Both the position numbers and the translations under genes were made by a program. Shown piece after piece: positions 14,559 to 18,709 of a stretch of DNA of 64,000 bases. Position 1 is the first letter of the stretch. Each line of letters starts with the position of its first letter. Origin of the DNA: Acidobacteriota bacterium (GTDB lineage Bacteria; Acidobacteriota; Vicinamibacteria; Vicinamibacterales; UBA2999); assembly GCA_030697165.1 (NCBI GenBank), contig JAUYQQ010000001.1, forward strand, positions 1-64,000, written 5' to 3'. Under the pieces are notes generated by a model, which was not told where the DNA came from, did not search any database, and saw only the letters and a list, made by a program, of their open reading frames with translations.

Positions 14559-15839
14559 TTGAATTCAAATTCCACTTCATCCCGAAGACCCGGCCGGCGC
14601 CGGTCTGGTGGTGGTGGCGGCCGCGGCGGACGCCGCGGCTCCTCCAGTGCACCGAGCTTCCGCCCTGCCGCCCCACTGCCCGACCTGCCGTGGATCATCG
14701 TCGACGCCGATGCGCCGCCGACTCCGTTCGACGAGTTGGGGTTCGATCCCCGGCTCGAGGCCGGTTTCCGCTCCCTCGGCTTCGAAGGCACCCGGCCCGT
14801 CCAGGGCGCGGTGATCCCGCTGGCGCTTGATGGCGACGATGTGATCGCGTGCGCCGAGACCGGCACCGGCAAGACGCTGGCGTTCGCGGCGCCGATACTC
14901 GAACTGCTGCTGACCGAACAGCCCGGCTACGGCGACCCGGCGCGCGAGGCCTTTACCCGCGCCCTGATCCTGGCGCCGACCCGCGAACTCGCGGTCCAGA
15001 TTGAAGACTCGCTGGTCGGCCTGACGTACCACACGCCGGTGACCACCGCGCCGGTGTTCGGCGGCGTCGAAATGGGTCCGCAGGAACGCGCGCTGCAGGC
15101 CGGGGTCGACATCATCGTCGCCACGCCCGGACGGCTGATGGACCACATGCGCCACAGCAATACCGACCTGGTGCGGGTGCAGTTCCTGGTGCTGGATGAG
15201 GCGGACCGGATGATGGACATGGGCTTCTGGCCCGACGTCCAGAAGATCATGTCGGCGCTTCCTCCCGACCGGCAGACGCTGCTCTTCTCGGCGACGCTGC
15301 CGGGCGAGATCCAGCGGATGGCGAAAGAGATGCTGCGCTCGCCGAAGTACGTGCAGGTGGGCAAGCAGGGCGGTGCGGCACGGACGATCGATCACCAGAT
15401 GGTGCAGGTCGAAAGCGGCGCCAAGACCGACTGGCTGGCCAACTTCGCCAAGCGCGAGGTTGACGGCCCCGTGCTGGTGTTCGTGCGGACCAAGATCGGC
15501 GCCGATCGGCTCACGCGCTCGCTGGTCGCGAAAGGCATTCGCGCCGCAGCGCTGCACGCGGATCGTACGCAGCAAGAACGCAACTCGGCGGTCGAAGGGT
15601 TCCGCTCCGGCAAGCATCCCGTGCTGGTGGCCACCGACATCGCCGCGCGCGGCCTCGACATCGAGGGCATCGCGCACGTCATCAACTTCGAAGTGCCCGA
15701 CTCGCCCGACACCTACGTGCATCGCGTGGGGCGCACCGGGCGCTCTGGCGCATCGGGCCACGCCGTGACCCTCGTGTCGCCGAACGAACAGCGCAACTGG
15801 AGCGCTGTGGAGGCTGCCATTGGATTCCGGGCCCGTTAA
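14559..15839 (+). CDS. DEAD-box RNA helicase
   Basis: About 426 residues. Motif I is AETGTGKT, motif Ia PTRELAVQ, motif II DEADRM, motif III SATLPGE, and the C-terminal lobe has DIAARGLDIEG and HRVGRTGR. The sequence before the core is rich in Arg and Gly, likely for RNA binding. It resembles RhlE-type helicases of ribosome assembly and RNA turnover. The start is uncertain: no ATG exists before the core. A TTG at 14559 clears infA; a TTG at 14484 would overlap infA by 56 bases. Confidence 0.88.
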   Translation: MNSNSTSSRRPGRRRSGGGGGRGGRRGSSSAPSFRPAAPLPDLPWIIVDADAPPTPFDELGFDPRLEAGFRSLGFEGTRPVQGAVIPLALDGDDVIACAETGTGKTLAFAAPILELLLTEQPGYGDPAREAFTRALILAPTRELAVQIEDSLVGLTYHTPVTTAPVFGGVEMGPQERALQAGVDIIVATPGRLMDHMRHSNTDLVRVQFLVLDEADRMMDMGFWPDVQKIMSALPPDRQTLLFSATLPGEIQRMAKEMLRSPKYVQVGKQGGAARTIDHQMVQVESGAKTDWLANFAKREVDGPVLVFVRTKIGADRLTRSLVAKGIRAAALHADRTQQERNSAVEGFRSGKHPVLVATDIAARGLDIEGIAHVINFEVPDSPDTYVHRVGRTGRSGASGHAVTLVSPNEQRNWSAVEAAIGFRAR

Positions 15840-16080
15840 CTCGGCCGCCGTCGCGCGCTTCCTGTCGTGCCGCTGGCGCAAGCCGGCCGAAGACGGCCTG
15901 CCCGACCACTGCACGCACCGTGACGTGCTGCCGATGGCCGGCAAGGAAGGGTTCAGCGCGGATTCGTGGTGTGCGGATTGCGCGCTCTACAAGGCAAAGC
16001 GGACGCCGCGGAAGCGTGAAGAGCAACAGCCGCAAGGCCAGCCAGGACAGCCGCAGGACGACTGGCGCTTTCGTTACTAA
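15820..16080 (+). CDS. Small cysteine-containing protein of unknown function
   Basis: 86 residues, starting at a TTG with a strong GGAGG site 6 bases before it, and overlapping the end of the helicase gene by 20 bases. Four cysteines are arranged as C17, C31, then C50-x2-C53, with H33 nearby, which could form a zinc site; the C-terminus is basic and then Gln/Pro-rich. Not recognised as a named family. The overlap suggests co-expression with the helicase and perhaps a role in RNA binding. Confidence 0.6.
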   Translation: MDSGPVNSAAVARFLSCRWRKPAEDGLPDHCTHRDVLPMAGKEGFSADSWCADCALYKAKRTPRKREEQQPQGQPGQPQDDWRFRY

Positions 16081-16185
16081 CGAGCGCCTCCGGGGCAAAG
16101 GCAGCGAATCGTAAAATCTTGTAACGGCCTCGTTGAGGCGTGCGATCTCTGGACGACAGGAGTATTGTGACGAGAGGGAGTGTAA

Positions 16186-17145
16186 ATGAGCCCTATCTAT
16201 AAGGGTGACCCGTCCGCTAAGAGCGCCTTCCTCATAGACCTTGAGTCCCGCCAGACTCACCACGACTTTCCACCTCAAGTCATCATCGAGACTACGGCCG
16301 CATGCAATCTCACGTGCGCCCATTGCCGCCACGACACCATGACCCGACCGGTTGGTCACATGCCAATGGCGCTGTACCGGCAGATCGTTGACGAGATCGC
16401 CGAGCGCGCGCCGCACACCGAAGTGTGGCCGACGTTCTACGGCGAAGCGTTCCTGCTCGACTATCGCCTGTTCTACATGCTGCAGTATGCCAAAGGGCGT
16501 GGCCTCACCAACCTCGTGCTCAATACCAACGGCACCCGCTTTACGGGCGAAGTGGCGGAATGGGTGATCGAGTCGGGCCTCGACCTGGTGATGTTCAGTC
16601 TCGACGGTTTCTCCCCAGCGGTCTTCGAGAGCGTTCGCGTCGGCGCGAACCGTGACGAGGTGTTTGCGAACGTCGAGCGACTGCTCGAGATCAAGGCCAG
16701 GCGCGGCGCGACCACGCGCGTCGAGGTCCAATATTCGATCATGGACGTCAACGAGCACGAAGTGGATCAGTTCCGCGAGTATTGGCTGGCACGCGGCGCG
16801 GACGTGAAAATTCGAGAGAAGCTCAGCTGGGGTGGCACGGTCGGCGCGGACAATCTCGACCCGCAGATGCACCGCATTGCCTGTCCGTGGGCCCTTCGCA
16901 CCTGCGCAATTCACTGGAATGGCGACGTGGTCGCCTGTGCCGTCGATTACGAAGGCCGATTCGTGGCCGGCAACGTCACCGGGAGCAGCATCCACGAGAT
17001 CTGGACGGGACCGCACCGTCGCCTCGAAGAACAGCACCTGGCGCACCGATTCTCGGACCTCCCGTCGCCTTGCCATGACTGCCTGGACTGGCAGGTTGCC
17101 GGTGGCGCCGAACACTTCAAGGCGGGCGAGGTTCGCACGTCATGA
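16186..17145 (+). CDS. Radical SAM protein with C-terminal SPASM/twitch-like cysteines
   Basis: 319 residues. The cluster motif CNLTCAHC (C40, C44, C47) binds the 4Fe-4S that cleaves S-adenosylmethionine. The barrel continues with FYGEAFLLDYRLFYMLQ (84-100) and LNTNGTRF (112-119). C-terminal cysteines at 233, 240, 251, 296 and 299 fit a twitch or short SPASM domain holding one auxiliary cluster, as in peptide- or sugar-modifying enzymes. The substrate is unknown and no precursor peptide is visible next door. GAGGGAG precedes the ATG. Its last 4 bases overlap the next gene, a partial copy of its own barrel. Confidence 0.88.
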   Translation: MSPIYKGDPSAKSAFLIDLESRQTHHDFPPQVIIETTAACNLTCAHCRHDTMTRPVGHMPMALYRQIVDEIAERAPHTEVWPTFYGEAFLLDYRLFYMLQYAKGRGLTNLVLNTNGTRFTGEVAEWVIESGLDLVMFSLDGFSPAVFESVRVGANRDEVFANVERLLEIKARRGATTRVEVQYSIMDVNEHEVDQFREYWLARGADVKIREKLSWGGTVGADNLDPQMHRIACPWALRTCAIHWNGDVVACAVDYEGRFVAGNVTGSSIHEIWTGPHRRLEEQHLAHRFSDLPSPCHDCLDWQVAGGAEHFKAGEVRTS

Positions 17146-17537
17146 GCGAACCCATCACGATGGTCGCTCGATCCCTGGCGCCGTCGCCCGACAGCCAGGC
17201 TGAGATGCTCCAGTGGAAGCGGCTGGTGTCACAGGCGGTGGCCGCCAACCAGCGCTTGGAACTGCATTACTTCGGCGGAGCGAACCAGATTTCTGCGTAT
17301 CGCCTGTTCTATATGCTCCAGCATGCCAAGCGAGCGGGGTCGCCTCACGTGGCCCTGCTCTCCGATGGCTTGTTCTGGAGCGACGAAGCCACTGACTGGC
17401 TGGCCGAATGCGGCGTGGACGAAGTTGTGCTGGAAACCGCCGGCGAGCTGCCGCCGGCGCTGGCCACGCGGGTCGCCGCTCTGGCGGGGCGCACGGATCA
17501 TCAGCCCACCGTCATCCTCCGGCCGCGGCAGGGCTAG
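17142..17537 (+). CDS. Half-barrel paralogue of the radical SAM protein, no cluster cysteines
   Basis: 131 residues starting in an ATGA overlap with the radical SAM gene. Residues 39-113 align without gaps to residues 79-153 of that enzyme: YRLFYMLQ-x-AK is shared exactly (53-63 versus 93-103), and TNGTRFTGEVAEWVIESGLD matches SDGLFWSDEATDWLAECGVD in pattern. The CX3CX2C loop, strand 1, the C-terminal half and the auxiliary cysteines are missing. The reading frame is intact and translationally coupled, which argues against random decay. It may pair with the enzyme or bind its substrate; a relic of duplication is the alternative. Stops tail to tail at a shared CTAG. Confidence 0.8.
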   Translation: MSEPITMVARSLAPSPDSQAEMLQWKRLVSQAVAANQRLELHYFGGANQISAYRLFYMLQHAKRAGSPHVALLSDGLFWSDEATDWLAECGVDEVVLETAGELPPALATRVAALAGRTDHQPTVILRPRQG

Positions 17538-18709
17538 TCGGAAAATTCTTTCGCCAACTCCACCCACTCGCCTTGCGGCGCCAGGCGCTCGTAGGCGCGC
17601 CAGTGGGCGCGGGCGTCCACGGAACGCCCCATCTTCTCGAGCGTGACCGCCAAGTAGAAGTGCGCGTCGGCGTAGCTGTTATTCAAGGCCAGGGCCTGGC
17701 GGTACGAGACCTCGGCCTCGCCGTAGTGGGCGTGGTCGTGGTGGATGTTGCCGAGGTTGAAGTGCGCCTCGAAGTACGAGGGGTCGAGCACGATCGCCCG
17801 TTCGTACAGGGCCTGCGCCTCGGCCAGCTCATCGCGCGAGTAGCGGATGTTGGCCAGGTTGATGAGGGCGGCCACGAGGTCGGGCTCCTCCTCGAGCGCG
17901 CGGCGATAGGCCTTTACCGCCTCGTCTACGCGTTCCGGCGTGCCATCGTCTAACAAAGAACCCATCAAGAAATACTGTTCGGCGCTGGACAAATCTCTAA
18001 CGCCGCCTAGGGTGCCTGGGGTGTCCGCCTCCGCGGACGTAGGCCGCTTCGGCGGGATGCCGGTTCGAGATCTCAGGTCGATGATTCTTGCCGGCTGGGC
18101 ATCAAGACGGAAATCGAACGCCAGTTGACCGACGCGCGACGCCTGAAGACTACGCAGGGCGGCGCGGAAGGCGGTGCCTTGCTGAAGCTCACCGGCCATT
18201 TGGCGCAGCGTTGTGAGATCGCCAAACCCGAAAAAGGTGTCGGCGTTGTTCTTGAACGCCGGCTTGATCAGGCCGCACTTCTCCATGTAGCGCAGGTGAT
18301 CGAGGCGCAACGCCGGGTACATGGCGAGCACGTCTTTCTGGCCGTAATGCTGAGTCCGGCGTTCAGCGACGGCCGGCTGGCCGGCCAGGCGGCAGAACTC
18401 GTCTTCGCTGAGCACGCGAATGCGGCCCGGTGTGTCGGCATTGATCTGGGCCACGCGGCGCAACTTCTGGCTCTGCGTACTGGAGTGGTCGAGAAGAACC
18501 GAGAGGTCAGGGGCACCGTCGGGATAGCTCGCCGCACCGACTACCAGCAGCGTGGTGCGCACCGTCACTTCCTCGTCCGTCGCGCCACCAAGCTCTTCGA
18601 CCAGCGCCCGCGCTTCCTTGCGGCCGAACGACCAGAGCTTGCCGCTGAAGACAACGGTCTCGCCGCGAAGCGGTGGTGCGTTCGGCGGATCGAATGGCAG
18701 TTCAGGCAT
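17534..18709 (-). CDS. BRCT - MerR-like - TPR protein
   Basis: 391 residues in three parts. Residues about 14-100 resemble a BRCT domain of the DNA ligase type (GETVVFSGKLWSFGRKEARAL, then LGGATDEEVTVRTTLLVVG). Residues about 118-190 resemble a MerR-type winged helix (YGQKDVLAMYP, LDHLRYMEKCGLI, FFGFGDLTTLRQM). From about 240 to the end are at least four TPR units (SYFEAHFNLGNIHHDHAHYG and similar). It is likely a DNA-binding regulator or scaffold, but no target is known. The gene follows the GT-C operon with a 63-base gap and may be its last member. Confidence 0.7.
   Translation of the reverse strand: MPELPFDPPNAPPLRGETVVFSGKLWSFGRKEARALVEELGGATDEEVTVRTTLLVVGAASYPDGAPDLSVLLDHSSTQSQKLRRVAQINADTPGRIRVLSEDEFCRLAGQPAVAERRTQHYGQKDVLAMYPALRLDHLRYMEKCGLIKPAFKNNADTFFGFGDLTTLRQMAGELQQGTAFRAALRSLQASRVGQLAFDFRLDAQPARIIDLRSRTGIPPKRPTSAEADTPGTLGGVRDLSSAEQYFLMGSLLDDGTPERVDEAVKAYRRALEEEPDLVAALINLANIRYSRDELAEAQALYERAIVLDPSYFEAHFNLGNIHHDHAHYGEAEVSYRQALALNNSYADAHFYLAVTLEKMGRSVDARAHWRAYERLAPQGEWVELAKEFSD

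Follow-up and report, generated by a model that had tools for sequence, protein, structure and literature searches.

The window, by which is meant the whole 64,000-nt stretch of DNA that was analysed, contains a gene for a radical SAM enzyme followed on the same strand by a small ORF, and the start of the latter overlaps the end of the former by the four bases ATGA (Table 1). Both ORFs and their overlap lie where the first-pass annotation of this DNA had placed them. The flanks are conserved and comprise the genes for IF-1, a DEAD-box helicase and a small four-cysteine protein (CYS86) on the left, and a convergent gene for a BRCT-TPR protein on the right. In tblastn searches, CYS86 gave a long match in the regions of six of eight relatives and a partial one in one more, with identities of 53–90% in relatives of the family, while it had no match in Pfam at E ≤ 1; its product is possibly an uncharacterised partner of the helicase. 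A scan for promoters and terminators returned no promoter and two terminator-like sites (1.1 in shuffled sequences), none of them at the end of the pair, and Rfam gave no match in the window.

Table 1. Features of the insertion and its flanks (positions in the window)
Feature	Position	Strand	Basis or remark
CYS86, left flank, small four-cysteine ORF overlapping the end of the DEAD-box helicase gene, outside the insertion	15820–16080	+	tblastn conservation
Insertion, approximately 1.45 kb (1453–1457 bp, depending on the assignment of the repeated CTA)	16077–17533		Alignment to the empty site of a congener (L062, genome G006)
Leader, 105 bp, G+C 0.56	16081–16185	+	No sigma-70-like promoter found
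Radical SAM enzyme, 319 aa	16186–17145	+	PF04055 and PF13186 profile matches
32-bp segment, helix YRLFYMLQ-x-A(K), enzyme gene	16462–16493	+	29/32 identical to 17298–17329
Small ORF, 131 aa, radical-SAM-fold homologue without Fe-S motif, probably 3'-truncated	17142–17537	+	Homology, AF2 model, coding signal
Second copy of the 32-bp segment, helix YRLFYMLQ-x-A(K), small ORF	17298–17329	+	29/32 identical to 16462–16493
CTAG, holding the stop of the small ORF (TAG, +) and that of the BRCT-TPR gene (TAG, -); joins CYS86 and BRCT-TPR in G006	17534–17537		
BRCT-TPR gene, right flank, convergent, outside the insertion	17534–18709	-	

Relative to the congeners, the pair sits in an insertion. In the congener G006, whose DEAD-box helicase is 96% identical to that of the window, the corresponding site is contiguous and empty, with the stop codons of CYS86 and BRCT-TPR lying in one common CTAG: positions 15892–16076 of the window (185 bp, 88.6% identity) are followed there directly by positions 17534–17728 (195 bp, 84.1%), and the trinucleotide CTA stands at both edges of the insertion (16077–16079 and 17534–17536). 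No terminal inverted repeats were found at the insertion (score 6, shuffled mean 7.1), and an insertion sequence or transposon was rejected as an explanation, given the lack of inverted ends, the lack of a transposase domain in either ORF and the presence of each gene as a single copy in the genome.

The BRCT-TPR regions of 11 relatives (G001, G002, G004, G005, G006, G007, G012, G013, G029, G036 and G122) were compared. In seven of them (G004, G012, G122, G036, G006, G029 with a partial CYS86 match, and G001 with approximately 0.87 kb between the genes), CYS86 and BRCT-TPR are neighbours in convergent orientation and the pair is missing. In G013 the two genes are adjacent but co-directional, and in G002, G007 and G005 CYS86 does not lie beside BRCT-TPR within the piece read. 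Two congeners outside these 11 (G003 and G008) had no BRCT-TPR match at E ≤ 1e-20. The proteins of the pair had no tblastn match at E ≤ 1e-3 in the loci of relatives (a set of 8 and then one of 12, partly from the same genomes). The reverse reading, with several exact losses of the pair, is less likely.

The gene for the enzyme is intact. Its product carries the Fe-S motif C40-x3-C44-x2-C47, the three cysteines of which are invariant in all 13 aligned family members, and a SPASM-type C-terminal domain with C233, C240, C251, C296 and C299. The protein scores above the cut-offs of both PF04055 (54.1 bits, cut-off 29.5) and PF13186 (SPASM; 44.2 bits, cut-off 21.5), and thus has the features of a radical SAM family member, CX3CX2C included. 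A radical SAM core with a SPASM-type domain is likewise found in the radical SAM/SPASM maturases of NCBIfam and in BtrN (PDB 4m7t), which matches residues 24–134 of the enzyme at E = 8.8e-7. The closest of the maturases is TIGR04317, followed by TIGR04055 and TIGR04311; unlike members of these families, however, the enzyme stays far under every cut-off among the matches listed (best 82.9 of 380 bits), and no NCBIfam model among the best 25 of 57 was above its own cut-off. The AF2 model of the enzyme alone had a pLDDT of 43 and was set aside.

The small ORF encodes a genuine, very diverged homologue of the radical SAM fold. In a single BLASTP comparison with the neighbouring enzyme, 27 of 76 positions were identical at E = 1e-11; the alignment of approximately 75 residues reported in the first-pass annotation is thus real, although it contains one gap and had been described as gapless. 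The two proteins share the helix motif YRLFYMLQ-x-AK, but the similarity extends beyond it. A comparison by hhalign with the alignment of the 13 family members gave a probability of 94.5 over residues 16–105, and a family profile built from the 12 members other than the neighbour gave 25.0 bits, or 10.2 bits with the motif masked, as opposed to 4.0 bits for the best of 200 shuffles. Outside the motif, the fixed-register score over 92 positions was matched by none of 20,000 permutations, in a test whose alignment had itself been optimised, and that over 49 ungapped positions by none of 100,000. Since this similarity to the family exceeds chance even outside the motif, the homology is genuine. 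The CX3CX2C loop and the auxiliary cysteines are missing, as had been proposed, yet the protein is not free of cysteine, as it contains C90. Four residues that are invariant in the 13 members (E87, Y101, N115 and D140) are substituted, whereas G86, L95, K103, G106 and G116 are retained. The protein has no Pfam match at E ≤ 1 and lacks both the PF04055 profile match and CX3CX2C, so that it is homologous to radical SAM enzymes by sequence but, by the features tested, not a member of PF04055. No NCBIfam family was matched at E ≤ 1, and no solved structure gave a sequence match under E = 0.94.

The AF2 model of the small protein has a mean pLDDT of 81.8 and a pTM of 0.76, although its alignment consisted of two rows, the other being the neighbouring enzyme, and the model is therefore not fully independent of the latter. 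Strands are predicted at residues 5–8, 39–43, 70–74, 94–99 and 123–128, with helices between them. By strand order, the protein would correspond to β1–β5 of the barrel minus the cluster loop, and would lack β6 and the SPASM part. The half-barrel of the first-pass annotation is accordingly upheld as a predicted partial barrel, but β1–β5 would exceed half of the core. A Foldseek search with the model gave no match at E ≤ 0.001, the best hits being universal stress proteins and TIM barrels, while a second fold search returned PRPP synthetases (Z up to 10.7), TIM-barrel enzymes and viperin 6b4c (Z 8.4, 3.3 Å over 122 residues). The fold searches thus point to a β/α barrel-like or Rossmann-like slice and not specifically to the radical SAM fold.

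The distribution of the two genes was followed in overlapping genome sets, each including the genome of the window: 60 relatives, 162 genomes of the order and a sample of 396 genomes of the phylum, the last taken from a larger group. In the other 59, 161 and 395 genomes, respectively, the small protein had no clear orthologue. The phylum sample yielded six weak matches at E ≤ 0.01 (L034–L039, E 8.1e-4 to 8.4e-3), four of which were followed up: in L034 and L035 the alignments looked like chance, the L037 match, read in part, resembles MsrA, and the L038 match is itself a radical SAM relative. There was no match in plasmids or phages. Pattern scans of an 84,980-species collection and of viral contigs recovered only a 17-residue stretch, residues 85–101 (DWLAECGVDEVVLETAG, positions 17394–17444), which resembles a stretch of IS110-type transposases; the two proteins from the species scan are such transposases, the match among the viral contigs (L064) is presumably another, and the resemblance was set aside as probably due to chance.

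The enzyme is more widespread. At E ≤ 1e-20 it was found in 10 of the 59 other relatives, with 30–48% identity. At E ≤ 1e-50 only G047 and G057 were recovered among the 161 other genomes of the order, and G164, G462 and G476 among the 395 others of the phylum sample, in which at most five candidates per genome were scored. These five are 41–48% identical to the enzyme, and further searches added none. Neither the species nor the viral pattern scan recovered the enzyme, and the 32 plasmid records were all below 60% identity (26–31% for the ten listed). In the three relatives with a readable downstream region (L016, L031 and L032), the gene that follows the enzyme encodes a hexapeptide transferase and not a homologue of the small protein, and the genes beside the pair in the window differ from this neighbourhood. 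The locus of the closest relative, L017 (48%), has 144 bp left downstream, and in L033 the contig edge falls within the enzyme gene. The conserved pairing that had been anticipated was therefore not borne out, the pair being seen in the genome of the window only among those searched. Absence of the small gene from close relatives had been named as evidence against a maintained pair, and it is indeed absent there; the enzyme gene, however, is absent there too, which makes this a weak test of partnership.

Two neighbourhoods of related radical SAM genes may be recorded in their own right. L016 (4118–6712), L031 (5181–8620) and L032 (6896–9368) share the order radical SAM, hexapeptide transferase, small carrier-like protein and glyoxalase-like protein, the last assigned by Pfam for L016 and L031 and by eye for L032. 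The carrier-like protein has a DSM or DSV motif, with no Pfam match for the two tested, and the L031 module also has an NAD-dependent epimerase. In a second radical SAM group (L018, L019, L020, L022, L024 and L025), 34–37% identical to the enzyme of the window, what is presumably an SDR-type epimerase gene (GAGFVGSH or GAGFIGSH motif) directly precedes the radical SAM gene in at least six of the eight loci L018–L025.

The description of the small protein as a copy of its neighbour is clearly apt for the 11-residue helix, in which 10 residues are common to both and the other 12 family members match the small protein at only 2–5. Elsewhere it is not, since the neighbour shares 20 of 88 residues with the small protein and is no nearer than the enzyme of L017 (23 of 88); the remaining 11 members have 12–19 identities over 86–88 positions. 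In an AU test of five placements of the small protein in the tree, none was rejected, with or without the motif, so that neither a copy of this enzyme nor an older paralogue is proved. That part of the enzyme gene was recently duplicated in tandem within this genome, and that the copy is now decaying, would account for the adjacency, the common strand and the 32-bp segment at 91% identity, but this is very improbable, as similarity to the neighbour outside the motif is no higher than to the relatives and silent sites are saturated. Over 103 aligned codons the two genes have a nucleotide identity of 47.6% (pS 0.66, pN 0.48), and where identical residues leave a choice of codon the same codon is used in 14 of 28 cases (saturation expectation 14.0). 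The genes thus differ by 52%, as opposed to 11–16% in the flanks relative to G006, which implies that their paralogy predates the insertion and that both came in together, although the flanks compared are coding and hence constrained. Nor does decay explain the codon signal: at 69, 60 and 47.6% identity, none of the 4000 neutral simulations run per level (without indels) reached the codon score of the aligned part of the small ORF (0.268), whereas 1.2% of those at 80% identity did. The frame is open, as had been noted, but this is weak evidence, since the aligned part stayed stop-free in 29, 19, 14 and 11% of the simulations over the four identity levels. A test of GC by codon position at the differing sites was borderline (p = 0.052). 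Codon preference and saturated silent sites together show that the small ORF was selected as a protein-coding sequence over most of its past, before the insertion, and a decayed fragment of the enzyme gene is unlikely. A tentative explanation of the shared helix is gene conversion over a short tract between two long-separated paralogues lying side by side, instead of selection or a recent common origin; it is compatible with the reading preferred below. It agrees with the drop in DNA identity on both sides of the tract, to approximately 43% outside it (118 of 276 bases), and with the concentration of shared residues in the helix; on the other hand, the tract holds three silent differences, and its identical codons (6 of 9, 5.1 at saturation) give no sign of recency. 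Gene conversion of this kind, or a joint constraint on the helix, over an old and fast-diverged paralogy would fit the sequences better than a recent copy.

The best explanation, to which we assign a probability of roughly 0.55, is that an intact enzyme gene was inserted and brought with it the 5' part of a paralogue that had diverged and has no cluster site, and that the small ORF is a remnant and not an established subunit. A DNA piece of approximately 1.45 kb with a complete radical SAM/SPASM gene would have entered at CTAG between two convergent host genes, carrying also the beginning of a second gene of the same fold, which was strongly diverged, lacked the cluster site and overlapped the end of the enzyme gene. 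The two ORFs would be translationally coupled, and in the donor the second gene would have been longer, its product perhaps assisting or regulating the enzyme without being catalytic; the donor length of this gene is an inference, no donor gene having been found in the searches. The second ORF now appears to read into an older TAG of the host. Its stop (17535–17537) lies inside the CTAG, its last sense codon straddles the insertion edge, and since the same CTAG is present in the flank of G006, the stop is older than the insertion. The clean stop that had been taken as a sign of maintenance therefore belongs to the host flank, where it joins the neighbouring genes in G006, and of the three frames in which an ORF could be cut at the insertion edge, one would run into this TAG. 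The small ORF was probably cut off at this edge, and its product in this genome would most likely be a folded but incomplete slice (β1–β5, without the Fe-S loop, β6 or the SPASM part). Across the window, CTAG occurs 13 times, as opposed to approximately 200 occurrences predicted from base composition.

Several observations weigh against a truncated remnant. The donor gene may itself have ended in CTAG and have been joined by a microhomology of 3–4 bases, the predicted fold ends neatly after β5, and the helix, whose 11 codons differ by three silent changes and one replacement, points to constraint on both copies. A rival reading is a functional pair: complete with its 131 residues, the small protein would be a non-catalytic mini-barrel binding the enzyme, perhaps via the shared helix, and would hold substrate, complete the open side of the barrel or inhibit the enzyme. 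Such a pair would agree with the ATGA overlap, the long coding history, the confident AF2 fold and the retention of the helix while the rest of the proteins dropped to 23% identity. It is nevertheless considered unlikely, as the stop is that of the host, the 161 other genomes of the order and 395 others of the phylum sample hold no clear orthologue, none of the three readable relatives has the small gene beside the enzyme, and the stop of the L017 enzyme is not in an ATGA overlap. Still more doubtful is a bolder form, in which the translationally coupled, cluster-less five-strand mini-barrel is a dedicated non-catalytic subunit docking via the shared helix, and the two genes form a cassette that moves between genomes and can use a host stop. 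What speaks for a working two-part system is limited to the overlapping genes, coding selection in the past and the helix common to both proteins. The small protein may have a present function, but one isolated pair whose stop is borrowed is too little to define a new type of system.

As a working subunit, the small protein would represent a minimal pseudoenzyme of the radical SAM fold and a handle on the completion or control of partial barrels. If it is a cut-off remnant, as is judged more likely, the locus clearly illustrates that a gene pair with an open frame, overlapping genes and a clean stop may seem maintained when that stop belongs to the neighbourhood. No pair of this kind was found described in the literature within reach of the search, most subscription journals lying outside its coverage. 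As its name indicates, the pseudo-SAM/SPASM family TIGR04347 shares the idea of a cluster-less protein of the radical SAM fold; the small protein, which does not reach its threshold (525 bits), differs in being a short slice without a SPASM part and without any NCBIfam match. Dph1–Dph2 and other enzyme–pseudoenzyme pairs are full-length, conserved and experimentally shown complexes. The pair in the window resembles Dph1–Dph2 in that a catalytic Fe-S enzyme stands beside a less active paralogue, but, in contrast to it, is a singleton with a host-derived stop.
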